A stretch of DNA of 21,689 nucleotides, from IMG/VR virus record IMGVR_UViG_3300042445_001953, positions 1 through 21,689 of that record. The stretch is one strand, 5' to 3'. The position numbers and the translations under genes were made by a program. Below, one piece after another: positions 169 to 14,045 of this stretch (its first letter is position 1; each line of letters begins with the position of its first letter). Source of the DNA: a virus. The notes under the pieces are model-generated. The model was given only the letters and a program-made list of their open reading frames with translations, was not told the origin of the DNA and did no database searches.

Positions 169-3100
169 ATGGCAGTTATACAAAAAACTTTATTTGCTAA
201 AAACTTAGATAGGTATAATGTATTGGTAAATGATACAGAACCCAATAGTAAATATTTTAAAGTAACGGAATTAACTGATACTTTAACAGGCGGTAAAAAT
301 GCCTTTTTAATTGCAGGGTCAAAAGAATTAGTACCTGATACAAAAATACAAATAGAATTAAAGGACTCAGCTGGCAATATAATTTATCACGAACCAGGAG
401 AAGGATACATTTCATCATCTTTAAACGGAGTACCATTTGTTACTGAATACTATGAAGGTGTTTCTAAAGTAGTTTCGGTTTATGTTTATCCAGATACTGC
501 ATATGGCCCATGTACTCTTACCATATTGGGTGAATTAAGTGAATATACTGATACAAATGGAATAGTTGCACCGGTTCCTTTAGATTGGGAAAATAAATAT
601 AATGTTAAATGGACAAAAACAATAAATGTAAATCCAACATTAGCTAATACTACAAAGATTAGATTTTACCAAAGGCCTGTAGCTACAATTACTGAAATAA
701 TATCTCCAATTTTTAGAATAGAAAGTGGTTCAAAAGTAAATTCTGGAATCAACCAGTCATTTGCAAACATTAAACTTTCAAAATTAGAAACATTTGCAGG
801 TGATGTTAAAAGAGTAAAAGTATTTAGAACTTCACAAGGTGACATATCGGATTTTGATTTAATACAAGATATATTAGTTGAGTCAAAAGAATTATTAACA
901 ACCACTCAATTATCCGGAAGTGTTATAGGAAATACAGGAACATTTACAACAGAAACACTTAAAAGCTTTTGGAATACTGGTTCGTTAAATACACAACTAA
1001 CATCTAGTAGAGTTGAAAGTGGAGTTAAATTAACAGGTGGTGGGTATTTTACATATACATCATCGTTAGACATTAAAAGTGCAAACACTTATGAATTAAA
1101 TTTAGATGCATTTTATTCGGCATCTATATCAACTAATTTAGGAATTTATTTAGTTTCAGGTTCGGAAAGTAGTAGTATTGCAACTTTAGTAGGAACACAA
1201 CCTACAAAAAATTTATTAGATACAATAATTCCATTTAAAATAGATAAAGATTTTGTATCGGCAAGTTTATATTTTTCACAATCACAAGGAGAGTGGCATT
1301 TAGGAAATATTAGTTTAAAATTATCAGAGGATACTGCATTTTCACCAGATGAGATTTCATTCATTACTACAATGCCTACGGTAATTGGAAACGAAGATTT
1401 TAATTTTAAGTTTGAATTTTATGATGTAAATAATAATTTTGTTCCAGTAGCAGTTACACAAAGTGCAAATTTTACAGGAGGTTCTAATGCAATTACAAAA
1501 TTATTAACATTTGAATCGGATAGAACGGCATTTAGATTTTCAACAGGTTCATTTGCAAATCCGCCAAATCAATCGGTAAGATTTAAAACAATAAAAACAA
1601 ATTTTACAGGTTCAGTAACATATGCATCATCTGCATTTGATGTTGGTGGTAATTATATAGAACCATCGGCTTATGCCGGAACATATCCAGGTACATTCGT
1701 ATCTCAAAATGATAATGGTGCACTTTTAAATGTAAGTAGTTTTAGTGGAAGTGTTGCAAGTGTATTGGTTGGTTCAATTGTATATACCGCATCATGTGAA
1801 GGGTTTACTGAATTTGAAACAATATATCGTTTTGAAGATGGTGATAATGCACCTGGTGTTTTTGTAACTGCAAATACAAATCAATTTATTTACAAAGCAA
1901 CAGACTTATCATTAAACCCAACGGGACAAGTTATAACAATAGAAGCTAAACGAAAAAATTTAGCATCAGCAACTACACCTTTAACGGTAAACTCTGGAAG
2001 TGGAAAACCACCACTAACATATGTTTCTACAAATACAACAAATGGTGTTGATACATATACATTGTCAGGAACATCATATCCATATTCAATCGGTGAAACA
2101 GTTTATTCTATTTCTGGATCTGACCAATTTGGAAATGAATTTTCGGATGCAATTAAAATAAGTCCTGTAAAAATATTGGATGGTTTGTCCGTATCTTTAA
2201 CAAACGACAATGCATCTATACCAGCACGTTCTACTGGATTTATTGAAAGTGGTTCTTTTGTATTGAGTAGTGGTTCGGTTAGTGTTAAAGTTGGTAATGA
2301 AATTATAACACATAGTAATGGATTATCTACAAATAATAGATTTGACATTATATCTGCGATTGCAACAAATGTTCAAACTGGTTCATCAAATTATTCAACA
2401 ACGGATTATTTCATATCAAGATTGGATGCGGATAGTGGTTCTTTGAATTTGACTATAAGATATAAGGATGGAGGGGGTGATACATCGGATACAACAAAAT
2501 TGGTAACATATACTAAAAACAAAAGGGGTGCACCAATTTTACAAATTACATCAACACCAAAAGACCAAACGGTAACTGCAAAATCAACGGGTGAACAAGT
2601 AGACACATTTTCAAATGTAACCATATCGGTAAAAGAAGTTTATAATGGTACTACTACAAATTTAACAATAACATCTTTAACTGCAACATCTTCGGACATT
2701 GCAAGTATATCAACAACTCCGTCAACGGGATTAGTTACTTTAAATGGAAAAACTTTAGGAAACGGAGTAAATTCAACAACGGTAGATATCAGTGCAGTAG
2801 TTACAGATTCGGAAGGTGTAAGTAGAACTATAACAGATACATTGGCATTATCAAAAACTAAAAAGGCAGTTCCAAATGTAGTGATATCTGCAACACCTCA
2901 AGCACAATCAGTATTGGCAAATGCTTCGGGTGTACAAACTGCAGCACTAACAAATGTGACTATAACTGCATTGGAAGGTAGTACTAGTAGATTCACATCA
3001 ATGGCAATAGCTGGGACTACCGGATTCTCATCAGCATCTCTACCGACGATTAGTGGTAATATTCTAACAATGATAAGTGCAGTTATGAATGCACCAGAAG

Positions 3101-5310
3101 CTTCTGTGACATTAACTGTAACACATACCGATAGTGAAGGTACTACGGGTCAAACTCAAACAATTGTAATAAGATCAACAAAAGTAAGTATTGGAGAAAA
3201 TGGAGCTCCAGGAGCAACAGGTGGAAATGGTCCTGGTGTTGTATTTAGAGGTGTATGGAGTTCCGCAACAACATATTATGATACGGATGATTTTCCTACT
3301 CGTAGAGATGCGGTTTTGTATGAAGGAACTTATTATGCAACAAAAACAAATGCAAATATAAACTTAAATAAACAACCGGATATTCAATCTACTTTTTGGG
3401 AATCTTTGGGAACCGATTCTTATTTTGTAGCTGCGGAGATTGCAATATTTAGAGAATCATTTGTAAAACAAACTATAAATGTTGGTACAAATGCATCAGG
3501 TAATGCAAACATAACTATATACGGAAATGATACCTCTCCATATATTTCAATTGGACAAGCAACTAAAGGATATGATAATTTGGGTGCTTTTATAGGTAGT
3601 AATGGCACTACTGGTAGATTATCTTTAAAATCTGCTACAAATTCATTAAAATGGGATGGTTCTACATTGGATATAACTGGAAACATTAATATAGCCGGAG
3701 GTACGGCAGCAACTCAAATTACAGATGCAGCTGCATCCGGGTCAGTTGCCTGTGCAGCTGCCCTAACTGCAAATACGGCTGCAGGAGCTGCACAACTAAC
3801 TGCAACAAGTGCATGTGGTAACGCTGCAACTGCACAATCAACAGCAAATACAGCAATAACCAGAACAGTTGATGGTTGTGGTAAAATAACATTTGATCCC
3901 ACACCATCGGGAACAGGATTATTTATGAGTGCATGCAGATTGGGATTTTATTGTAATAGTTGTTGGAAAACTTATATGAACAACGGTGGGTGTTTTTTCT
4001 TAGCAGGTTCTGGAAATAATAGTTTAACTTGGGATTCATGTACATTAACTATAAATGGAGCAATTAATATAATAGGTGGAACTGCAGCAACACAAATTGC
4101 ATGTGCAGCCAGTTGTGGAATTAATGCATGTGCAGCTGCATCAAGTGCAAATACGGCTGCAGGTTGTGCACAACAAACTGCAACAACTGCGTGTAACAAT
4201 GCAGCAACTGCACAATCAAAGGCAGAACACGCGTGTAGTTGTAGTTATACGGCATTGGAAAGATCAGTAAATTCGGCCGGCAAAATAACGTTTGCTCCAA
4301 CACTAACGGGGAATGGATTATTTCTAAGTTCAACACATATGGGATTTTATTGTCATCCCAATTGGAAAACTTATATGAATTGTAGTGGTCATTTCTTTTT
4401 ATCCGGAACAGGCAATAATGGATTAAGTTGGGATGGTAGTACATTACTTATAGATGGAAATATTACGGCTAGAAGTGGTACATTTACCGGAAATATATGT
4501 TCATCTGCAACAATATCGGGTGGTTTTATTTGTGGTGCAACGGTTAGTGGTGGAAGCTTAGTTGGTGGATTACTAACTATGCCAAATTCACAAGGTACTA
4601 ATTTCTTTTGTATGAATTTAAATGGAGAATTTTGGATGGGCCCTATTTCAAGTATGTTTGTAATGGCTGATAGGGACTGGAAATGTGATCCACAGATACC
4701 ATTTGGTGGGAGGTGTATTGGTGGTAAGATTATTTTTTGGGATGATTTTGGGTGTAGATCTAACCCAAGGGACGCGCCAGCGATTTGTGCTTACAATGGA
4801 GATATATCTTCACTTACTTATTATTGTAATGGTGTTACTGAGGCCCGTTGGGTTCAACTGACTACACGATGTTATTTTAGCGTTAGTGTTTTTGAAGGAG
4901 GATTAATATACTATGCATGTACACAGGGTTTATATGTTGCGGGTGATGTTGTAGCTGGACAATCTGATAGGAGATTGAAAACTAGTATAATGAACATTCC
5001 AAATGCATTATGTAAAATAAATCAATTAAATGGGGTTTATTTTAATTGGAACGAATGTGCATGTGTATTAGCACAAAGAGATACAAATAAGAGAGAACTA
5101 GGATTCATTGCACAAGATATTAATAAAGTTTTACCAGAAGCAGTTGATTATGCAGCTTTTGATAGAATGCATGGTACTTCAATAAGTGGACAAAACTATT
5201 TAACAGTTAAATATGAAAAAATCACACCTTTATTATTAGAAGGAATAAAAGAGTTACATTGTGAAATGGAAGAATTAAGGTGTCAAATTAATATATTAAA
5301 AAGTAGATAA
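169..5310 (+). CDS. Large tail fibre / adhesin with C-terminal S74 chaperone domain
   Basis: A 1713-residue virion protein, probably a receptor-binding fibre. The N-terminal half is Ser/Thr/Gly-rich beta-structure, with Ig-like repeats around residues 795-1005 (each ends in a 'TDSEG' strand). A short Gly-rich collagen-like stretch follows near 1009-1023. Next come a small aromatic module (near 1025-1085) and tandem WDGSTL-type repeats (about 1159-1432). The last 115 residues (from 1599) match the endosialidase-type intramolecular chaperone (peptidase S74). S1599-D1600 is the expected autocleavage site and K1604 sits where the family's catalytic Lys does; a coiled coil closes the protein. In this family the domain trimerises the fibre and then cuts itself off. 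Residues from about 1190 onward hold 32 cysteines, against 2 in the preceding part. The stop overlaps the next start by 1 nt (TAATG). Confidence 0.85.
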   Translation: MAVIQKTLFAKNLDRYNVLVNDTEPNSKYFKVTELTDTLTGGKNAFLIAGSKELVPDTKIQIELKDSAGNIIYHEPGEGYISSSLNGVPFVTEYYEGVSKVVSVYVYPDTAYGPCTLTILGELSEYTDTNGIVAPVPLDWENKYNVKWTKTINVNPTLANTTKIRFYQRPVATITEIISPIFRIESGSKVNSGINQSFANIKLSKLETFAGDVKRVKVFRTSQGDISDFDLIQDILVESKELLTTTQLSGSVIGNTGTFTTETLKSFWNTGSLNTQLTSSRVESGVKLTGGGYFTYTSSLDIKSANTYELNLDAFYSASISTNLGIYLVSGSESSSIATLVGTQPTKNLLDTIIPFKIDKDFVSASLYFSQSQGEWHLGNISLKLSEDTAFSPDEISFITTMPTVIGNEDFNFKFEFYDVNNNFVPVAVTQSANFTGGSNAITKLLTFESDRTAFRFSTGSFANPPNQSVRFKTIKTNFTGSVTYASSAFDVGGNYIEPSAYAGTYPGTFVSQNDNGALLNVSSFSGSVASVLVGSIVYTASCEGFTEFETIYRFEDGDNAPGVFVTANTNQFIYKATDLSLNPTGQVITIEAKRKNLASATTPLTVNSGSGKPPLTYVSTNTTNGVDTYTLSGTSYPYSIGETVYSISGSDQFGNEFSDAIKISPVKILDGLSVSLTNDNASIPARSTGFIESGSFVLSSGSVSVKVGNEIITHSNGLSTNNRFDIISAIATNVQTGSSNYSTTDYFISRLDADSGSLNLTIRYKDGGGDTSDTTKLVTYTKNKRGAPILQITSTPKDQTVTAKSTGEQVDTFSNVTISVKEVYNGTTTNLTITSLTATSSDIASISTTPSTGLVTLNGKTLGNGVNSTTVDISAVVTDSEGVSRTITDTLALSKTKKAVPNVVISATPQAQSVLANASGVQTAALTNVTITALEGSTSRFTSMAIAGTTGFSSASLPTISGNILTMISAVMNAPEASVTLTVTHTDSEGTTGQTQTIVIRSTKVSIGENGAPGATGGNGPGVVFRGVWSSATTYYDTDDFPTRRDAVLYEGTYYATKTNANINLNKQPDIQSTFWESLGTDSYFVAAEIAIFRESFVKQTINVGTNASGNANITIYGNDTSPYISIGQATKGYDNLGAFIGSNGTTGRLSLKSATNSLKWDGSTLDITGNINIAGGTAATQITDAAASGSVACAAALTANTAAGAAQLTATSACGNAATAQSTANTAITRTVDGCGKITFDPTPSGTGLFMSACRLGFYCNSCWKTYMNNGGCFFLAGSGNNSLTWDSCTLTINGAINIIGGTAATQIACAASCGINACAAASSANTAAGCAQQTATTACNNAATAQSKAEHACSCSYTALERSVNSAGKITFAPTLTGNGLFLSSTHMGFYCHPNWKTYMNCSGHFFLSGTGNNGLSWDGSTLLIDGNITARSGTFTGNICSSATISGGFICGATVSGGSLVGGLLTMPNSQGTNFFCMNLNGEFWMGPISSMFVMADRDWKCDPQIPFGGRCIGGKIIFWDDFGCRSNPRDAPAICAYNGDISSLTYYCNGVTEARWVQLTTRCYFSVSVFEGGLIYYACTQGLYVAGDVVAGQSDRRLKTSIMNIPNALCKINQLNGVYFNWNECACVLAQRDTNKRELGFIAQDINKVLPEAVDYAAFDRMHGTSISGQNYLTVKYEKITPLLLEGIKELHCEMEELRCQINILKSR
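3643..4464 (+). repeat. Tandem fibre repeats (WDGSTL / GGTAATQI / GKITF / WKTYM units)
   Basis: The encoded motif WDGSTL or WDSCTL followed by a T/N-x-x-G-NI stretch begins near 3643, 4021 and 4420, giving periods of about 378 and 399 nt. Between occurrences both full units carry the same order: GGTAATQI, an Ala/Thr/Ser-rich helix-like stretch, GKITF, GFYC and WKTYM. This looks like tandem duplication of a roughly 130-residue shaft module. Cysteine positions differ between copies. Confidence 0.75.
4963..5307 (+). other. Peptidase S74 intramolecular chaperone domain (within fibre gene)
   Basis: Residues 1599-1713. It begins SDRRLK, the conserved start of the domain, with Ser-Asp as the expected scissile pair and Lys five residues later. 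ELGFIAQDI and VLPEAV are further family hallmarks. The C-terminal leucine/glutamate heptads would form the trimeric coiled coil. Four or more cysteines inside this domain are unusual. Confidence 0.85.
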
Positions 5311-6503
5311 TGGCATTACCAGCTTCAGGGCCTATTAAAATGTCGGAAATAAAGGCCTATTTCAATTCTACTTCATATTCATTGAGGGCATATGCCGCAG
5401 CTGCAAAAACTCAAACAGGTCTTGCAAAATTTGATGCACCTGATAAACTTAGTGAATTTTTAGGTTATGCAGCTCCTGAAGCTCCAACGGTAACACCAAC
5501 TGCAGCACCAACCGTAACACCAACCGTAACACCAACTGCTGCACCAACACAAACTACATTTACAGGATTTGTAAGTACAGTGGACGAACAGGCGGCTTGT
5601 GATGGTGGAGAATACGGACTTGTTACAATTACTGTTTTTGGAACAACAATATGTAATGCAACATCGGTACGATCATTAGGATCAGATATAATTGGTAATC
5701 TATACGGAGACTTTACTGCGAATCAAGTATTTTATGTAAGCAGACTTGGAAAAGTTAGAGTATTCACGCGTAATGGTAGTTTATTCAATGCATCACCCGA
5801 TGATGTGTGTTCTGATTGTCCGACGGCAGCACCAACGGTAACTCCAACTGCTGCACCAACTGTAACTCCAACCGATGCACCAACCGATGCACCAACTGTA
5901 ACACCAACCGATGCACCAACTGTAACACCGACCGCAGCACCAACCGCCGCACCAACTACATTTACAGGATTTGTAAGTTTAGCAGATGAGGGAACGGCTT
6001 GTGAAGGAGGAGAATATGGACTTGTTACAATTACTATTATTGGAACAACTTTATGTAATGCAACATCAATACGTGCATTATCATCAGCTACAATTGGTAA
6101 TTTATATTCTGATTTTGATGGAAGTCAAGTATTTTATGTAAGTAGACTTGGAAAAGTTAGAGAATTCACACGTGTGTCCACACTACAAAGGGGAACACCG
6201 ACTTCAGAATGTTCTGATTGTCCGACGGCAGCACCAACGGTAACTCCAACTGCTGCACCAACTGCAACACCAACTGTAACACCAACTGCAACACCAACTG
6301 TAACACCAACTGCAACACCAACTGCAACACCAACTGCAACACCGACTGTAACACCGACCGCAACACCAACTGTAACACCAACCGATACACCAACTGTAAC
6401 ACCGACCGCAACACCAACAGCTGCTCCGGTTTACTACATATCATTATCAACCGGTACAGACCCATGTGATGCAAAAACTAATTATGGAGGAGCTATACAA
6501 TAA
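5310..6503 (+). CDS. Modular tail/adhesin protein with two 88-residue repeats and Pro-Thr linkers
   Basis: A 397-residue probable virion protein. Residues 1-55 hold the ALPASGPI start and a 'KLSEFLGY' end that I recognise from structural proteins of Bacteroidota phages. Two modules of exactly 88 residues follow (83-170 and 217-304). They are clearly homologous: both have [32 protein letters not shown] and CSDC, with four cysteines each. Pro-Thr-Ala/Val linkers (about 59-80, 171-216, 305-373) separate them. The final 24 residues ([15 protein letters not shown] onward) look like the beginning of another module that ends early. ATG overlaps the upstream stop by 1 nt, so it is probably translationally coupled to the fibre. 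The linkers resemble substrates for O-glycosylation, and hydroxylase and glycosyltransferase genes lie just downstream. Confidence 0.75.
5484..5549 (+). repeat. Pro-Thr linker repeat 1
   Basis: A 66-bp stretch built of 6-nt CCA-ACN-type units encoding [10 protein letters not shown]-like sequence between the N-terminal domain and the first 88-residue module. The unit keeps frame if copy number changes. Confidence 0.8.
5556..5819 (+). repeat. 88-residue module, copy 1
   Basis: 264 bp encoding residues 83-170. It aligns end to end, without length change, with the copy at 5958-6221. It has four cysteines ([18 protein letters not shown]), so disulfides are possible in the mature particle. Confidence 0.85.
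5820..5957 (+). repeat. Pro-Thr linker repeat 2
   Basis: 138 bp encoding [14 protein letters not shown]-like sequence between the two 88-residue modules. Some Asp replaces Ala or Val. Confidence 0.8.
5958..6221 (+). repeat. 88-residue module, copy 2
   Basis: 264 bp encoding residues 217-304, homologous to copy 1 with all four cysteines kept. Nucleotide similarity is high near [10 protein letters not shown], which suggests a fairly recent duplication or ongoing recombination between copies. Confidence 0.85.
6222..6428 (+). repeat. Pro-Thr linker repeat 3 (longest, minisatellite-like)
   Basis: 207 bp encoding 69 residues dominated by [10 protein letters not shown]. At DNA level it is a near-perfect array of 12-nt units (CCAACTGCAACA / CCAACTGTAACA), long enough to be prone to slippage. 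Units are multiples of 6 nt, so length changes stay in frame. Confidence 0.85.
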
Positions 6504-6555: not shown

Positions 6556-7260
6556 ATGCCTGCAGGAATCAATAATGTTCAAAATTATGTAACCAGTTAT
6601 CAATGTTCTATTCAGGGGTTATCCATTGGGTGTCCTGTTGCTGGGGCCGATGGGTGGTACTCCGATGGTGTTAATTCATATTATGTACAAAATGGAAGTG
6701 TTATAACTGTTAATTCCGACCCTTGTTATGTTCCACCACCTCCGCCACCTCCACCACCTCCTCCGACAGAAGACCCATGTTTTCTTTATGGTACTGAAAT
6801 CAAAATGGCCGATGGTAGTAATAAACTAATTGAAGATTTAGTATTGGGAGACGTTCTTAGTAGTTTATCAATAGAAGGATTAGATAAAAATGTTGAAAAT
6901 AATTGGGTTACTTTTTCGGATAATAAATTTTCGTTTACTCCATCAACTGCGGTAATTGTAAATTTAATACACGGATCGTATTCTAACTATTATATTATAA
7001 ATAACTCAATACGAATAACATATGAACATCCGGTGTTTATAAAAAGAGATACTGAGTATAAATTTTGTAAAGTCCGTAATTTATTAGTAGGTGATTTATT
7101 ATTTAATACCGATGATACTTGGATTGAAATACAAACAATTGAATTTATTAATGAAACATGTCAAACTGTTGGTGTTAATATTGAAGATGATGATGTATAT
7201 TTTGGTAGTGGTATATTGGTACACAATGCACCACAGGATAAGGAGTTTCAACCTGAATAA
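6556..7260 (+). CDS. Hint (intein-like) domain protein with polyproline linker
   Basis: A 234-residue protein. Residues 1-57 form a small Cys-containing module (WYSDGVNSYYVQNGSV) of the kind often repeated in Bacteroidota phage tail proteins. An 11-proline run follows (60-70). A Hint domain spans about 75-224: Cys75 opens it, then GTEIKMADGS and IEDLVLGD (block A), T155-x-x-H158 (block B), and a C-terminal LVHN with H223-N224. The catalytic Cys, Thr-His and His-Asn are all present, so autoprocessing chemistry looks intact. The residue after Asn is Ala, not Cys/Ser/Thr, and no homing endonuclease is present. This fits a bacterial-intein-like domain that cleaves rather than splices. It may release or transfer the N-terminal module onto another virion component; that role is inference. 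Confidence 0.8.
   Translation: MPAGINNVQNYVTSYQCSIQGLSIGCPVAGADGWYSDGVNSYYVQNGSVITVNSDPCYVPPPPPPPPPPPTEDPCFLYGTEIKMADGSNKLIEDLVLGDVLSSLSIEGLDKNVENNWVTFSDNKFSFTPSTAVIVNLIHGSYSNYYIINNSIRITYEHPVFIKRDTEYKFCKVRNLLVGDLLFNTDDTWIEIQTIEFINETCQTVGVNIEDDDVYFGSGILVHNAPQDKEFQPE
6778..7227 (+). other. Hint / BIL-type autoprocessing domain
   Basis: Encodes residues 75-224, from the nucleophilic Cys to the terminal His-Asn. About 150 residues is right for a mini-Hint fold lacking an endonuclease. Confidence 0.75.
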
Positions 7261-7281: not shown

Positions 7282-9186
7282 ATGAATAAAACAATATTTG
7301 TAAGTATAGCTTCATATAAAGATATTGATGTTACAAATACAATTGATGATATTTTTAATAGAGCATGTTATAAACATAGAATAGTAATTGGATTATTTTT
7401 ACAAGATACAAAAGAGGAAATTGATAGAATAACGAAATTATTAAGTACCAAACAATACTATAAAAACATAAATTTAAAGAGTGTAATATATACAGAAGCG
7501 AAGGGTTGTGGGTGGGCTAGAAATGTTATTTTATCAGAATTATATAACAATGAAGATTTTTTCTTTTGTGTTGATTCTCATTCTAGGTTTTTAAATAATT
7601 GGGATACTGAATATATAAGTTGGTTTGATAATTTACCATCTAAAGGTGTTATAAGTGTATTTCCTCAATTATTTGAATTTGATGAAACATATGAAGAATA
7701 TACAAAAAGAGAATCAACAACTATATATTCTACAAATGCTCCGGTATGGACACCGGAGTACGAACATCCACCATGTCAGAGAGTTTGTTATCAAGATTAT
7801 GAAAAAAATATGACCATCTCTGGTGGTAATATTTTTGGTAGTGGTGAAATAGTTAGTATTTTAAAAGTAGATAAATACTATAATCCAACTAAGGAACAAG
7901 AAATTTATTCTTTACTATTATATAAAAGTGGTTATGATATTTATGCAATTTCTAAAAATATAGTTTGGCATAAATATATAAAAAGTTCTAGTGAATCTTA
8001 TAGAGAATTATGTAATTGGAGTAAATTTAATCCTGAAAATGATTTTGTATCAAGTTTAAAATATTTTGGAGGAACCGAACGTAGTTACTTAATGTGGTTA
8101 TCAGAAATTTATAAAGAATGTGACGATTGTTATAAAAAAAAAATAAAAGAAAAAAATATATCAAAAACAATATCACATGAAAATGATAATTTAGATTATT
8201 CAAATAATTTAATTCATTTTTATTGGGATGGTGATATTTCTGAAAATAGATTAAAAATATTAAAAGATTCAATTTATTCTACAAGAATATACAATAAAAA
8301 CCACAAAATCATATTACATACAAATACATTAAAACAAAATATATTTGATGAAAAATTTAATATTGAAATAAATAATTGGAATGACTCTTTATTTGAAGAT
8401 TTACCACTAACGGATAATCAAATAGAAAAATATAAAAATTTACACCCAAGAGATTTTTCAGATTTATTTAGATTAATTATATTATGGAAATATGGTGGAA
8501 GTTATATGGATACCGATGATATATGTATACATTCAATATCCAATAAGCCAAATTTAATTTGTAGAAGTTATGATCCACATACCTCATCTTATAATAATGT
8601 AAAAGATGAAGAATGTATTCCTGGATATATCAGAGAAATAAGAGGATATGATCAAATTAATATGTTTCCAAGAAATGATTGTTGGCAAAATTTTGAAATA
8701 AAATCAAAATTCATAACCGATTTGTTATTTAGTAGTGAATTTTTAAACAATGAAAATTGTTTAAACATATTGGGAGAAAATAGTTGGCAATCTTTGGTGA
8801 ATAAACATTGTATAAATAAAATAAATGAATTTGGAAAAACATGGAATTATGGTTTAACACTTTTGTATTTATATGAAGATTTTGTAAGTACTAGTTCTTT
8901 TTGGGATAAGGGTAAAAATGGTGGAGAAATGCATGACATGTATAAAAATTTACCAAATATTGAAAAATTTGAATGGGGTAATTATAAATGTAATAGAAAA
9001 GATGCATACACTTTTTTAAGAGAGTTATTAATAAAATATCCATACTTAACACATATGTGGTTACATTCTAAAGATCAAAATGAGGAATGGTTAATTGAAG
9101 ATTTGGATATGGATAAACTATATTCAATTTCTACTTGGATATATAATAAAACAAAAAGAATGATAAAAAATTATGAAACAATATAA
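7282..9186 (+). CDS. Two-domain glycosyltransferase: Skp1-type GlcNAc-transferase plus DXD sugar transferase
   Basis: A 634-residue protein fusing two glycosyltransferases. Residues 1 to about 280 match the GlcNAc-transferase family typified by Skp1 GnT1 (Pfam 'GlcNAc', PF11397): VSIASYKD at the start, EAKGCGWARN, the family's DSH-x-RF signature (D98-S-H100-S-R102-F, with NNWD after it), a Gly-rich ISGGNIFG, and a distal VWHKY. Residues about 308-634 resemble the Gly_transf_sug / OCH1-like family: LIHFYWDG, then H388-PRDFSDLFRL and YGGSYMDTDD, with D410-x-D412 as the metal/nucleotide-sugar site. Studied members of the first family modify hydroxyproline. With the prolyl hydroxylase at 10489 this suggests addition of two successive sugars to hydroxyproline in phage fibres. 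Sugar and target specificity cannot be read from sequence. The end overlaps the next gene by 14 nt. Confidence 0.8.
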   Translation: MNKTIFVSIASYKDIDVTNTIDDIFNRACYKHRIVIGLFLQDTKEEIDRITKLLSTKQYYKNINLKSVIYTEAKGCGWARNVILSELYNNEDFFFCVDSHSRFLNNWDTEYISWFDNLPSKGVISVFPQLFEFDETYEEYTKRESTTIYSTNAPVWTPEYEHPPCQRVCYQDYEKNMTISGGNIFGSGEIVSILKVDKYYNPTKEQEIYSLLLYKSGYDIYAISKNIVWHKYIKSSSESYRELCNWSKFNPENDFVSSLKYFGGTERSYLMWLSEIYKECDDCYKKKIKEKNISKTISHENDNLDYSNNLIHFYWDGDISENRLKILKDSIYSTRIYNKNHKIILHTNTLKQNIFDEKFNIEINNWNDSLFEDLPLTDNQIEKYKNLHPRDFSDLFRLIILWKYGGSYMDTDDICIHSISNKPNLICRSYDPHTSSYNNVKDEECIPGYIREIRGYDQINMFPRNDCWQNFEIKSKFITDLLFSSEFLNNENCLNILGENSWQSLVNKHCINKINEFGKTWNYGLTLLYLYEDFVSTSSFWDKGKNGGEMHDMYKNLPNIEKFEWGNYKCNRKDAYTFLRELLIKYPYLTHMWLHSKDQNEEWLIEDLDMDKLYSISTWIYNKTKRMIKNYETI

Positions 9187-9805
9187 TGAATTTAAATTTT
9201 CAGTAATAATACCTACCATGTGGTATTGTGATTTGATATACCCATTATTAGATAATTTAACGGCCTCTAAATTGGTTGGGGAGATTATATTGATTGATAA
9301 CAATAAGAGTGCTAGACCATCTAAAGTTGTTAATACTAAAAAAATTAGAATAGTGGAACAAGAACAAAATATATTTGTAAATCCTGCTTGGAATTTAGGA
9401 GTAGAATTATCCAACTATCCAAACATTTGTATATCAAATGATGATTTGGTTTGGGATGTAAATGTATTACCATATATTTTAGAGAATTTACATTTGGGTA
9501 TAATTGGCCAATCTACAAGCAATTACTATGATGTAGAAGAAAAATTATCTATAAAAGAAATAGTCAACAGGCCGTGGGGATGGGGTTGTTGTTTTTGGTT
9601 ATCTAAAACCAATTGGGTTGAAATACCTTCCAAACTTAAAGTTGCCTGTGGAGATGATTGGTTAATTAAATACATCCATGCATGGGAAATTACAGGTCTA
9701 AAGTTAAAAACTGAACCACATCCCTGGTCAGTATCTCGTACTTCAAGCCGTCGTGAATTTAGTATAATGGGAGAAATGGATATGGAGGTATTCAAAACGT
9801 TATGA
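9173..9805 (+). CDS. Glycosyltransferase, GT-A fold (family 2-like)
   Basis: A 210-residue protein. FSVIIPTMWY near the N-terminus is the first beta strand of the GT-A nucleotide-sugar fold; EIILIDNN follows. CISNDDLVW (D90-D91) is a DXD-type metal site, and GDDWLI near residue 160 resembles the acceptor-side acidic motif. It is shorter than stand-alone GT2 enzymes but complete for a minimal domain. Its start lies 14 nt inside the previous gene and its stop overlaps the next start as ATGA, so the three glycosyltransferases are probably co-translated. The likely role is extension of a glycan started by the upstream enzyme; donor and acceptor are unknown. Confidence 0.7.
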   Translation: MKQYNEFKFSVIIPTMWYCDLIYPLLDNLTASKLVGEIILIDNNKSARPSKVVNTKKIRIVEQEQNIFVNPAWNLGVELSNYPNICISNDDLVWDVNVLPYILENLHLGIIGQSTSNYYDVEEKLSIKEIVNRPWGWGCCFWLSKTNWVEIPSKLKVACGDDWLIKYIHAWEITGLKLKTEPHPWSVSRTSSRREFSIMGEMDMEVFKTL

Positions 9806-10482
9806 TTTCGGTTTTAACACTAACTTATCAAAGATACGAATTATTAGAAGAAGCAATATATTCTTTTCTAAATCAAACTGAATTAGGGGATGCTGAAATG
9901 GTTGTAATAAATGATTCACCATTAGTAGAATACCGAATAGACAATCCAAAGGTAAAAATAATAAATCTAAATAAGAGATTTAGTTCCGTTGGAAAAAAAT
10001 TAGAATGGGGATTTACTCAATGTAAGGGTGATGTTATATATCGTTTAGATGATGATGATTTACTAACACCTTGGGCGTTAGAATTACAAAGGGAATACCA
10101 CACTACTGCACCGAATAACCACATATATAGATGCCAAAAACATTATTATTTTTCAAATAATGAATATCAATGTCTTAAGTCCTCTGTAAATAATGGTAAT
10201 GCGTATAAGAAAAATTGGGTAATTGATATCCAGATGATTGATACGTCTATAGCTGAAGATAACTGGTTAACATTTTTAAATAATGGAGACATATATACAG
10301 GAAATAATAAAAAATATTCTATGATATATAGGTGGGGGATGGATGTATGCCATATAAGTACAATTGAAAATATATCAAATGAATTTGTTTTTAAAAAAAT
10401 GGATGAAAAAAATACTGAATGTGGAATAATATATTTAAATCCTAATTTTAAAAATGATTATTGGAATCAACTTCCAAAATAA
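9802..10482 (+). CDS. Glycosyltransferase family 2
   Basis: A 226-residue GT2-like enzyme. It opens ISVLTLTYQRYELLEEAI with FLNQT, the classical GT2 N-terminal pattern, followed by VVINDSP (first acidic motif). D83-D84-D85-D86 in YRLDDDDLL is the DXD-type site. The C-terminal third is less conserved and carries several Trp residues. The start overlaps the previous stop by 4 nt (ATGA) and the stop is 6 nt from the hydroxylase gene. It probably acts in the same glycan pathway; capsule-like or DNA-base glycosylation are alternatives that sequence alone cannot exclude. Confidence 0.78.
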   Translation: MISVLTLTYQRYELLEEAIYSFLNQTELGDAEMVVINDSPLVEYRIDNPKVKIINLNKRFSSVGKKLEWGFTQCKGDVIYRLDDDDLLTPWALELQREYHTTAPNNHIYRCQKHYYFSNNEYQCLKSSVNNGNAYKKNWVIDIQMIDTSIAEDNWLTFLNNGDIYTGNNKKYSMIYRWGMDVCHISTIENISNEFVFKKMDEKNTECGIIYLNPNFKNDYWNQLPK

Positions 10483-10488
10483 TAAATT

Positions 10489-11061
10489 ATGATACAAATA
10501 ATTGATTACCAAATAACCCAAAATGAATGTCAAGAACTAATTGATATGGGTTCTAAAAATTTAACAAACGCATCTACATTAGGAACTCCAATTGAAAATT
10601 ATAGAGTTGCTGAAAACACTTGGATTTATTCAAAAACAGAATTGACAGAAAAAATAAAAAAGTTAATTTCAGATAATACCGGATTACCAATTGAACATCA
10701 AGAACAAATACATATAGTAAAATATAATGTTGGAGGTGAATATAAAACACATCATGATTTTTTTCATCCAAATACAGATTATTACGATACTACTATGAAA
10801 TCAGGTGGCCAAAGAGTATATAGTTGTTTATTTTATTTAAATGATGGTTTTATGGGTGGCGAAACCGAATTCCCTATTAAAAAAATAAAAGTAGTACCCA
10901 AAACAGGTAGACTATTAATTTGGAGAAATATTAATCCTGATGGTGAATTAGATCATGAATCATTACATGCTGGGTTACCCGTTATTGATGGTACAAAGTG
11001 GATTATAATTATTTGGGTTAGAGAAAAGTCAGTTATTAAAAATAAAACTAATATTAAATAA
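10489..11061 (+). CDS. Prolyl 4-hydroxylase-like 2-oxoglutarate/Fe(II) dioxygenase
   Basis: A 190-residue double-stranded beta-helix dioxygenase. The iron ligands are visible: H88-x-D90 in YKTHHDFF and the distal H160 in LHAGLPV. K170 in GTKWIIIIWV is the 2-oxoglutarate-binding Lys of the prolyl 4-hydroxylase family. GGQRVYSCLFYLND and FMGGETEFP are also characteristic of that family. The reaction expected from the family is O2- and 2-oxoglutarate-dependent hydroxylation of peptidyl proline. The upstream tail proteins offer Pro-Thr repeats and an 11-proline run as substrates, and the neighbouring GlcNAc-transferase-like domain belongs to a family acting on hydroxyproline. Hydroxylation of another amino acid or of a nucleobase is possible but less well supported. 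Confidence 0.85.
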   Translation: MIQIIDYQITQNECQELIDMGSKNLTNASTLGTPIENYRVAENTWIYSKTELTEKIKKLISDNTGLPIEHQEQIHIVKYNVGGEYKTHHDFFHPNTDYYDTTMKSGGQRVYSCLFYLNDGFMGGETEFPIKKIKVVPKTGRLLIWRNINPDGELDHESLHAGLPVIDGTKWIIIIWVREKSVIKNKTNIK

Positions 11062-11147: not shown

Positions 11148-14045
11148 ATGAATTTAATAACAGAAGTAAATAAGCCAACAGTTACACAATCAATAATCAT
11201 TTATGGTGGTCGTTTTCAACCATTTCATAAAGGACATTATGCGGCATACCAAAATCTAGTAGCAGAATTTGGAAAAGCAAATGTATATATTGGAACGTCT
11301 AACGACACGAGTTCGGACAAATCACCTTTTACATTTAAAGAGAAAAAAGAAATTGCAACTAAGATGTTTGGAGTACCAGCATCTAAATTTGTGAAAGTAA
11401 ACAACCCTTACAGACCCGTAGAGATACTTTCTAAATACGATGGTAAGATTACTCAATACATTGCAGCAGTCGGAGAAAAGGATGCCAGTAGACTAAAGAG
11501 TGGATATTTTAAACCATATAAAGGTAAAGCCGGATATGGTTATGATGAGGTTGGTTATTACTATACAGTACCTTCGGAACAAAATCCAATAAGTGGTACG
11601 GATGTTAGAAAAAAATTAGGAAGTTCAAATAAAGAAGTAGCAAAAAAGTTTTTCTTAAAAGCATATCCATCATTTGATAAAGATATTTTCAAAATGATTA
11701 GTTCAAAATTAAATGAAGATGGTATGCCGGGTGGAATAGGTGTTGGATTAGTTTTACCAGGTGGATATATCAATGGTGCACCAACCGGTTCTAAAAACGA
11801 AATTATAGGTGAAATTGAAAATGATGTAAACGAATTTATAACACAATATTTTAATGAAGGTATTTCTGAATCAAAAGAAAACTCAATAAATCACTTTGTA
11901 GAGTATGCAACTAAAAAATTAAAGTTAAGTGAAAGACCAAAAATTACTTTATTAAGTGGTAGAGAATATTCAGAAGCAAAAACCAGTTTAGGTGGATATA
12001 ACCCAATGTCAAAAGAAATATATGTTGCAATAGAAGGTAGATTAACTGCGGACATACTTAGAACACTTGCACATGAGATGGTTCATAGAAAACAAGATGA
12101 ATTGGGTTTAGTAAAAGATGAAATCAAAGATGGTGCAACAGGTTCTCCAATTGAAAACCAAGCACATGCAGTAGCCGGTATCTTAATGAGAAATTATGGT
12201 AAGATAAATAAACAAATATACAACGAAAGTATTAATATAGATGTTGATAAGGGTGATACTGTTTTGATGGGAAAATTCAAAAATAAAAAAGTTGTTGTAA
12301 AAGATATTGGAAAAGATGACTACGGAATGCCAACAATAAATGGTAAGAAAGCAGCAACATTTAGATTGGGAGACAAAGGCCAAAACATATTCAAAAAAGA
12401 TGAAATAGATGAAGTAGGGGAAGGTTCATCAAAACCATATTCTTTTACTCAAAGAGAAAACCAAAAAGATAATAAAGTTTACGCATTTACTACCACTTCA
12501 GACGAACATTATAGAGTTGAGTTTGATTATAAAGATTTACGTGATGCCTGGGAGATGGAGTTTGATATATACTTTGGTTCGGGTGATGAGGTTATAAATA
12601 AAGGAGAGATATATTCCATAATGGCAACTGTAACTAATATCGCATTAGATTTTATTAAAAAAGTAAACCCTAAAATAATATATTTCAGAGCTGCGAAAAA
12701 CTTTAATAATGATAATAGACGTGAAAAACTTTATTTGGCTTATATAAAAAAACAACTTCCCAATTGGACATTAGGTAAACAATCTGGTTTAACCACATTG
12801 ACTAATCCTAAATATAAAAATCAATCAACTTTATCAGAAGGATTACTTTTAGAAGGTGGAGCATACGGACATATGGCACATCCATTTGATGATATGGATT
12901 TAACATTTGGCGATTTAAAAGATATTATTTCAAAAGCACTTAATGGTGATTTAGGAGTAGTTAGAGAAAAAACAGACGGCCAAGCTTTAGCAATAAGTTG
13001 GAAAAATGGTAGATTGATAGCAGCTAGAAATAAAGGTAATTTAGCAAACGCAGGAGCAAACGCAATGGGAATAGAGGATGTTGCATCAAAGTTCGGTGGT
13101 AGAGGTGGTTTAACAGATGCATACAATTTTGCAATGAGAGATTTATCTGCAGCAATAAGTGGATTATCCGATACACAAAGAAAAAAGATATTCAATGAAG
13201 GAAAGTGTTTTATGAATTTGGAAGTAATATGGCCTACATCGGTTAATGTTATTCCTTATGGCCAGGCATTGTTAGTATTTCATAATACAACTTGTTATGA
13301 TGAAAAGGGTGTGGCAATTGGAGCAGATGGTGGAGCAGCGGGAACTTTGGCCGGAATGATTAAGCAAGTCAACGCAGATGTTCAATCAAAATATACAATC
13401 CAAGGCCCTCCAATAACATCAATACCAAAGTCAGACGATTTAAGTGCAAAGCAAGGTAAGTATTTATCAAGACTTAAAAAACTACAATCGGAATTTGGAT
13501 TGAGTGATTCGGATAATGTTGCAGACTATCATCAAAGTTGGTGGGATTGGTGGATTACATCAAACGCACCTATTAAAGTTGACAAAATTACAAAAGAAGC
13601 ATTAATTAGAAGATGGGCATTTGGTGATAAAGGGTTTAGATTAAATACAATATCAAATTTAGAATTACAAAAGTGGGCAACTACAAATGATAAAGTAAAT
13701 GTTATAAAACAACAAAAAGACAATATCAAACCATTTGAAGAAATATTTTTAGGTGTAGGTGCAGATGTTTTAGAATTTGTTGGTAGTGTATTAACAGTTC
13801 ACCCTGAAAAAGCAATTAGAGCAATGAAACAAAAATTTGTATCTGTTGCATCACAAGTTAGAAGTGGTGGAAATCCTGCACAAATACAAAAATTAAAATC
13901 AGAACTAGAAAGATTAAATAAATTAGGTGGTATTGAAAAGATAGTAGCAAATGAAGGATTGGTATTTGTTTATAATGGTAAAACATATAAACTTACAGGT
14001 ACCTTTGCACCACTAAATCAGATACTTGGCATTTTTTACTCTTAA
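11148..14045 (+). CDS. Multidomain enzyme: HxGH nucleotidyltransferase, HExxH metalloprotease-like, ligase-like nucleotidyltransferase
   Basis: A 965-residue fusion. Residues about 14-175 are a cytidylyltransferase-like domain (GGRFQPF, H27-K-G-H30, then ISGTDVR at 148-154), the class that includes NMN and pantetheine-phosphate adenylyltransferases. Residues about 225-350 hold H309-E-M-V-H313 with a downstream QAHAVAG helix, a zinc-metalloprotease-like signature. Two small phage modules follow (about 365-550). The C-terminal part (about 560-965) has ligase-superfamily motifs: K608-T-D-G611 (motif I, candidate AMP-accepting Lys), NLEVIWP (690-696), E936-G-L-V939 (motif IV) and K948 (motif V-like). 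I recall similar C-terminal regions as DUF6267 in phages. The substrate is unknown; RNA or DNA repair or NAD-related chemistry are both possible. It is preceded by the candidate promoter in the gap after 11061. Confidence 0.7.
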   Translation: MNLITEVNKPTVTQSIIIYGGRFQPFHKGHYAAYQNLVAEFGKANVYIGTSNDTSSDKSPFTFKEKKEIATKMFGVPASKFVKVNNPYRPVEILSKYDGKITQYIAAVGEKDASRLKSGYFKPYKGKAGYGYDEVGYYYTVPSEQNPISGTDVRKKLGSSNKEVAKKFFLKAYPSFDKDIFKMISSKLNEDGMPGGIGVGLVLPGGYINGAPTGSKNEIIGEIENDVNEFITQYFNEGISESKENSINHFVEYATKKLKLSERPKITLLSGREYSEAKTSLGGYNPMSKEIYVAIEGRLTADILRTLAHEMVHRKQDELGLVKDEIKDGATGSPIENQAHAVAGILMRNYGKINKQIYNESINIDVDKGDTVLMGKFKNKKVVVKDIGKDDYGMPTINGKKAATFRLGDKGQNIFKKDEIDEVGEGSSKPYSFTQRENQKDNKVYAFTTTSDEHYRVEFDYKDLRDAWEMEFDIYFGSGDEVINKGEIYSIMATVTNIALDFIKKVNPKIIYFRAAKNFNNDNRREKLYLAYIKKQLPNWTLGKQSGLTTLTNPKYKNQSTLSEGLLLEGGAYGHMAHPFDDMDLTFGDLKDIISKALNGDLGVVREKTDGQALAISWKNGRLIAARNKGNLANAGANAMGIEDVASKFGGRGGLTDAYNFAMRDLSAAISGLSDTQRKKIFNEGKCFMNLEVIWPTSVNVIPYGQALLVFHNTTCYDEKGVAIGADGGAAGTLAGMIKQVNADVQSKYTIQGPPITSIPKSDDLSAKQGKYLSRLKKLQSEFGLSDSDNVADYHQSWWDWWITSNAPIKVDKITKEALIRRWAFGDKGFRLNTISNLELQKWATTNDKVNVIKQQKDNIKPFEEIFLGVGADVLEFVGSVLTVHPEKAIRAMKQKFVSVASQVRSGGNPAQIQKLKSELERLNKLGGIEKIVANEGLVFVYNGKTYKLTGTFAPLNQILGIFYS

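Follow-up and report, generated by a model that had tools for sequence, protein, structure and literature searches.

A putative self-processing, BIL-like Hint domain at the C-terminus of a phage tail-fibre-type protein

The 234-residue open reading frame studied here (Hint ORF) probably encodes a tail-fibre-type virion protein that ends in a self-processing, A-type-BIL-like domain, as judged from sequence comparison and a predicted structure. By every sequence test made the domain appears A-type-BIL-like, in a setting that is uncharacterised, and it seems to belong to a phage domain family that is widespread, being carried by dozens of otherwise unrelated fibre proteins. The window analysed is the whole of the 21,689-nt record IMGVR_UViG_3300042445_001953, and the features of interest are collected in Table 1. 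On rechecking the sequence, the reading frame, its numbering and every residue named in the preliminary description (C75, T155, H158, H223, N224 and A225) proved correct, as did the 11 prolines at 60–70 and the 10 residues after N224, whereas its term ‘Cys-rich adhesin module’ is generous for an N-terminal piece that holds just three Cys (17, 26 and 57) and for which searches with residues 1–59 returned only an identical contig and weak chance matches. That contig, a second IMG/VR entry (L001), carries the same Hint ORF and flanks with zero mismatches; no close variant of the exact ORF was found with which selection on it could be measured, and a plasmid search gave just short proline-run matches.

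Table 1. Positions of the Hint ORF, its parts and the two preceding genes in the window
Feature	Position	Strand	Description	Evidence or context
Tail fibre	169..5310	+	1713 aa, C-terminal S74 chaperone	Upstream of ORF2
ORF2	5310..6503	+	397 aa: short N-terminal region, two Cys/Tyr modules, Pro/Thr repeats	
Hint ORF	6556..7260	+	234 aa: short N-terminal module, 11-proline linker, C-terminal Hint domain	
N-terminal module	6556..6732	+	Residues 1-59, three Cys	Low-confidence model
11-proline run	6733..6765	+	Residues 60-70; TEDP next, then Cys75	
Hint (BIL-like) domain	6778..7227	+	Residues 75-224	Profile, alignment, AF2 model, fold search
Cys75 codon, block A	6778..6780	+	Predicted N-terminal nucleophile; -1 residue is Pro74	Invariant, alignment n=28
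Block B, T155-Y-E-H158	7018..7029	+		T155, E157, H158 and P159 invariant (n=28)
Block G, H223-N224	7222..7227	+	Predicted Asn-cyclization site	Invariant (n=28)
C-terminal tail, APQDKEFQPE	7228..7257	+	Predicted release by Asn224 cyclization	

The identity of the domain is indicated by several comparisons. The family PHROG 38766, annotated as virion structural protein, aligns with residues 73–225 of the Hint ORF at an E-value of 1.3e-12. Every Pfam match of the single sequence lies below the curated cut-offs, and the family is therefore invisible to ordinary annotation. An alignment of 28 relatives contains 12 invariant positions, C75, T155, H158, H223 and N224 among them, and the profile built from it ranks the Clostridium thermocellum BIL (2lwy, 6e-15) and Tetrahymena BIL2 (3e-12) ahead of the top intein (1e-7). 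The AlphaFold2 model of the domain has a pLDDT >90 over most of its length; in VIA-align, BIL2 (6y75) comes first (Z 18.9, rmsd 1.6 over 135 residues), followed by 2lwy (Z 17.5), both of them ahead of inteins and of Hedgehog (1at0, Z 16.3), and Foldseek also places 6y75 and 2lwy at the top. As VIA-align rows with a Z difference <1 count as ties, the fold comparison gives the BILs a modest lead over inteins and the profile a clearer one. Profile and structure nevertheless both rank BILs first and so agree on the type, and the intact-looking, BIL-type Hint domain that had been read from the letters alone is thus borne out as a complete domain whose closest solved relatives are, by profile and model, BIL domains, ahead of inteins and Hedgehog. 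As a separate observation, the block A region (window 6778-6880) resembles the ataxin-1 AXH domain in a phmmer search (E 1.4e-4), through chance or distant relation, and PF08517 (AXH) is matched by 7 of the 28 aligned sequences at 0.01; the AXH reading of the single sequence was rejected, as it falls behind BILs and many inteins once the profile is used.

The signature residues likewise place the domain with A-type BILs. Besides the Hint fold (AF2 model; BILs first in fold and profile searches), C75 and T155-x-x-H158 supply the N-terminal Cys/Ser and block B TxxH, the C-terminal His-Asn is present as an invariant H223-N224 (n=28), and Ala225 leaves no nucleophile at +1. In B-type BILs the C-terminal intein motif is absent or atypical, whereas the Hint ORF ends in a canonical LVHN followed by Ala225 and 9 further residues. 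With the C. thermocellum A-type BIL the window domain shares fold, top profile match, Cys1, TxxH, terminal His-Asn, a non-nucleophilic +1 residue and a place in variable proteins; it differs in forming the end of a fibre-type protein of a phage, where hardly any residues come after it, and the phage family differs in that the block F His is mostly replaced by Asp (28/33 members) and the Asp at F:4 is mostly lost (Asp in 7/33). The Hog Hint of Hedgehog is similar in fold, in lying C-terminal to the processed part and in the predicted N–S acyl shift at Cys, but the Hedgehog type was rejected as there is no sterol-recognition region after the Hint domain, where merely 10 residues remain, and the His-Asn end suits Asn cyclization.

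It is highly unlikely that the domain is, or once was, a genuine intein. Its block F/G sequence lies near the intein consensus and a sub-threshold Pfam Intein_splicing match is obtained, but class 1 inteins have Cys, Ser or Thr at +1, a C-extein and Asp at block F:4, whereas the Hint ORF has Ala at +1, only 10 residues thereafter and Gly206 at F:4. There is moreover no endonuclease, the domain is not within a conserved protein, and inteins from the same viral survey look different, with another start, an internal position in the protein and then a Ser-containing SDES junction. The intein reading was rejected on the +1 residue, the missing C-extein and the gene context.

Viral contigs were scanned with two alignments, which gave 78 and 80 loci, and the complete Hint domains formed 37 clusters at 70% identity. 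In 34 of the 37 the Hint domain is C-terminal, keeps C1, TxxH and HN and is followed by a tail of 3–44 residues (median ~9); conservation of TxxH and HN is partly built in because the scan patterns contained these motifs, a caveat that does not cover conservation of the Cys or the presence of both motifs in every match. The +1 residue of the 34 clusters is A in 9, V in 7, L in 4, F in 4, T in 3 and K in 2, with single others, is never Cys or Ser (0/34), and differs even among the close relatives L087, L088 and L090 (L, F and A, respectively). At –1, Gly is found in 25 clusters, often after poly-Gly, and Pro in 3 including the window. Among 27 full-length carriers the only invariant columns are C, G, T, H, H and N, and the N-terminal parts are unrelated, with collagen repeats (5/27), BACON (4/27), Calx-beta, PASTA and Pro/Thr repeats; tail-fibre PHROG matches are frequent. 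Values of dN/dS within five clades of relatives range from 0.05 to 0.37, pointing to purifying selection on the Hint domain in these relatives. Were there no catalysis, one would not expect precisely the residues C, T, H, H and N to stay unchanged across such divergent carriers, and a catalytically idle Hint fold, acting as a purely structural end domain or a binding domain, is in our view distinctly improbable, although the block F Asp is not conserved, the window ORF has Pro at –1, and degenerate stand-alone Hint-like ORFs without catalytic residues adjoin the gene in relatives.

Individual members of the family had already been seen, as the records of jumbo phage NCTB (BN7874_136 and _132) and Erwinia phage Y3 (Y3_110) carry the remark ‘phage tail protein, contains intein domain’. 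These PHROG 38766 proteins have a homologous C-terminal Hint domain in which HN is followed by 7–10 residues, and the Hint ORF has the same arrangement of C-terminal Hint, HN end and short tail on a putative virion-type protein; they differ in their collagen-like or other long N-terminal parts and are ~25–28% identical to the window domain. In NCTB, a complete Hint tail protein is immediately followed by a stand-alone Hint-like protein (BN7874_135, L007:701-1159) in which Cys1 is absent and HN is kept. Two further arrangements were encountered. In L148, L156 and L161 the Hint domain lies inside long proteins, with an apparent Ser start after GGGGKK and ~900 following residues that look like a tail-tip protein, and in L189, L191, L192, L232 and L236, proteins of Bacteroidota genomes stop after the Hint domain with LVHNK or LVHNKT and represent a cellular version of the C-terminal Hint cap. 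No literature on phage Hint/BIL tail proteins, or on a BIL family capping fibres, was found in a search outside which most subscription journals lie.

The window is assigned to a T4-like phage because it encodes a portal protein and a terminase that shares 53% identity with the terminase of Flavobacterium phage immuto, and its host is probably a member of the Bacteroidota. Its gene order is S74 fibre, ORF2, Hint ORF, glycosyltransferases, 2OG oxygenase and NMNAT. An S74 fibre gene directly precedes the Hint gene in seven relatives (L088, L090, L092, L029, L103, L131 and L160); the carrier is a single ORF of 1564–1640 aa in the first three and a Hint protein of 233–241 aa in L029 and L131. L087, L088, L090 and L092 have the downstream NMNAT gene in common with the window (73–83% identity), in the order Hint carrier, small ORF, further ORF and NMNAT, where the further ORF of L088 is a group 7 glycosyltransferase. 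The NMNAT-type protein of the window (11148-14045) has 965 aa and its relatives in these four loci are several hundred residues longer (at least 1343 aa). Taken with the tail-fibre family matches in relatives, the S74-fibre gene order supports the designation ‘tail protein’ in the preliminary description, as far as sequence can indicate it.

A role of the Hint domain as a self-removing folding or assembly aid, present during folding and then cut off much like the S74 chaperone, would accord with its nearly constant C-terminal position on fibre-type proteins and its adjacency to S74 fibre genes in several phages. The S74 endosialidase chaperone, found in the upstream fibre gene of the window, is a self-releasing C-terminal domain of tail fibres whose fold and chemistry are unrelated to Hint. 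Many Hint carriers are not collagen-like, and Hint domains usually occur as monomers and are not known to assist trimerization; we consider such a role improbable.

The start of ORF2 coincides with the fibre stop, as does that of the Hint carrier in relatives, and the last 24 residues of ORF2 with the first 58 of the Hint ORF resemble an extra copy of the Cys/Tyr module, albeit in a weak alignment. An origin of the two ORFs from a single gene is somewhat likely, if short of an even chance, and the existence of short stand-alone Hint proteins speaks against it. Searches for relatives of ORF2 returned only the identical contig and weak chance matches. Programmed frameshifting or bypass across the 52-base gap between the two ORFs was rejected, the stop-to-stop frames not overlapping and the RNA being less structured than shuffles (z +1.67).

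Other ORFs were noted directly after the Hint gene in relatives. Those of 147–154 aa in L088 (6486-6926), L090 (6476-6916), L087 (1117-1560) and L092 (6726-7187) look like degenerate Hint domains without Cys1, TxxH or HN (hhalign E 9e-7); their structural model is too weak to count alone, and inteins make up almost all of its PDB matches (Z no higher than 6.7). The window has no such ORF after its Hint gene. In L029 (4560-5036) and L131 (3026-3502) the ORF after the Hint gene seems to encode a GIY-YIG (SegE-like) endonuclease; PF19835 is matched by two scanned members, and the downstream ORFs of L029 and L131 have the same sequence start.

The Pro-rich ORFs of the window are followed (7282-11061) by genes for a GT60-like glycosyltransferase (PF11397), two GT2 enzymes and a 2OG-Fe(II) oxygenase (PF13640). 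We take the PF11397/GT60 family to include the Dictyostelium Skp1 hydroxyproline GlcNAc-transferase. Because of these downstream genes, the locus suggests that proline hydroxylation and glycosylation of fibre linkers may take place. Genes for 2OG oxygenases also come after the Hint gene in L028 (which has a GT60 gene too), L036, L079-L082, L104, L123 and L160, always downstream on the same strand and never (0) upstream. The ORF after the Hint gene in L160 (6687-7784) gives a 2OG oxygenase profile match (E 9e-12); one scanned downstream ORF is a SET-domain protein and, by sequence, is apparently this same ORF.

For the Hint domain itself, established Hint chemistry and the lack of a +1 nucleophile lead us to expect a thioester that water or an amine resolves, and a tail that is lost. 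Cys75 would attack the Pro74–Cys75 bond with the help of T155 and H158 to form the thioester, which water or a nearby amine, such as a Lys on a second protein of the virion or cell surface, would resolve, so that the N-terminal part is left with its linker end either free or joined to that partner; Asn224, helped by H223, would cyclize and release the 10-residue tail. In inteins, Thr B:7 and His B:10 affect the N–S acyl shift at Cys1, the terminal His-Asn pair drives Asn cyclization, and in class 1 the Asp of block F (F:4) influences reactions at the N-terminal splice site (PMC4031507). A-type BILs keep His-Asn, lack the +1 nucleophile and mainly self-cleave (reviews PMC7664689, PMC5874633 and PMC7765530), and BIL domains without a +1 nucleophile mostly cleave (PMC7664689, PMC7765530). 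Efficient splicing by the window domain is not expected, and the earlier prediction of cleavage or transpeptidation instead fits the computed evidence of a +1 position that appears unconstrained and is never Cys or Ser, and of an absent C-extein; this part of the preliminary reading stands together with its BIL type and tail protein, and its Cys-rich label does not. As the family keeps the machinery of the N-terminal junction but lets the tail and +1 residue vary, it is probably the reaction at the N-terminal junction that matters biologically. Pro74 at –1 and Gly206 at F:4 are specific reasons for caution on this predicted step. Pro at –1 is poor for N-terminal cleavage in several inteins, and since two other clusters also have it, Pro is either tolerated or the N-terminal step is slow there.

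Conjugation is a real alternative to release because the domain nearest in fold, BIL2, attaches its N-flank to lysine. As a specific form of the self-processing explanation, a lysine on an adjacent protein of the virion or host surface would intercept the Cys75 thioester and covalently fix the fibre end, an outcome that we regard as possible though rather unlikely. BIL2 of the Tetrahymena BUBL1 locus (6y75, 6tmm), which is the closest structural match and second by sequence profile, sits between ubiquitin-like domains and is reported to form an isopeptide bond between the C-terminus of its N-flank and a lysine of a ubiquitin-like partner (PMC8616854), whereas any acceptor for the window domain would be hypothetical. 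The family favours Gly-rich, unhindered acyl ends before Cys1, but the window has Pro there, and hydrolysis would leave the same sequence signature.

By analogy, the family may represent a portable BIL cap that joins the ends of many unrelated phage fibre types covalently to a virion protein or the host surface by ATP-free isopeptide formation, a joint proposal that we hold to be speculative and unlikely. If true, it would add a chemical cross-linking step to phage assembly or adsorption, of which no earlier description was found in the literature searched. An intact BIL that nearly always ends fibre-type proteins provides a concrete setting for testing the role of BILs, with fibre maturation by self-cleavage and covalent coupling as candidate roles. 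The C-terminal BIL family also explains the scattered ‘contains intein domain’ remarks on tail proteins, and warns that tail proteins with a C-terminal BIL should not be annotated as inteins. Finally, ligation tools may be gained from these new BILs, which are small and have Gly-rich junctions by nature.
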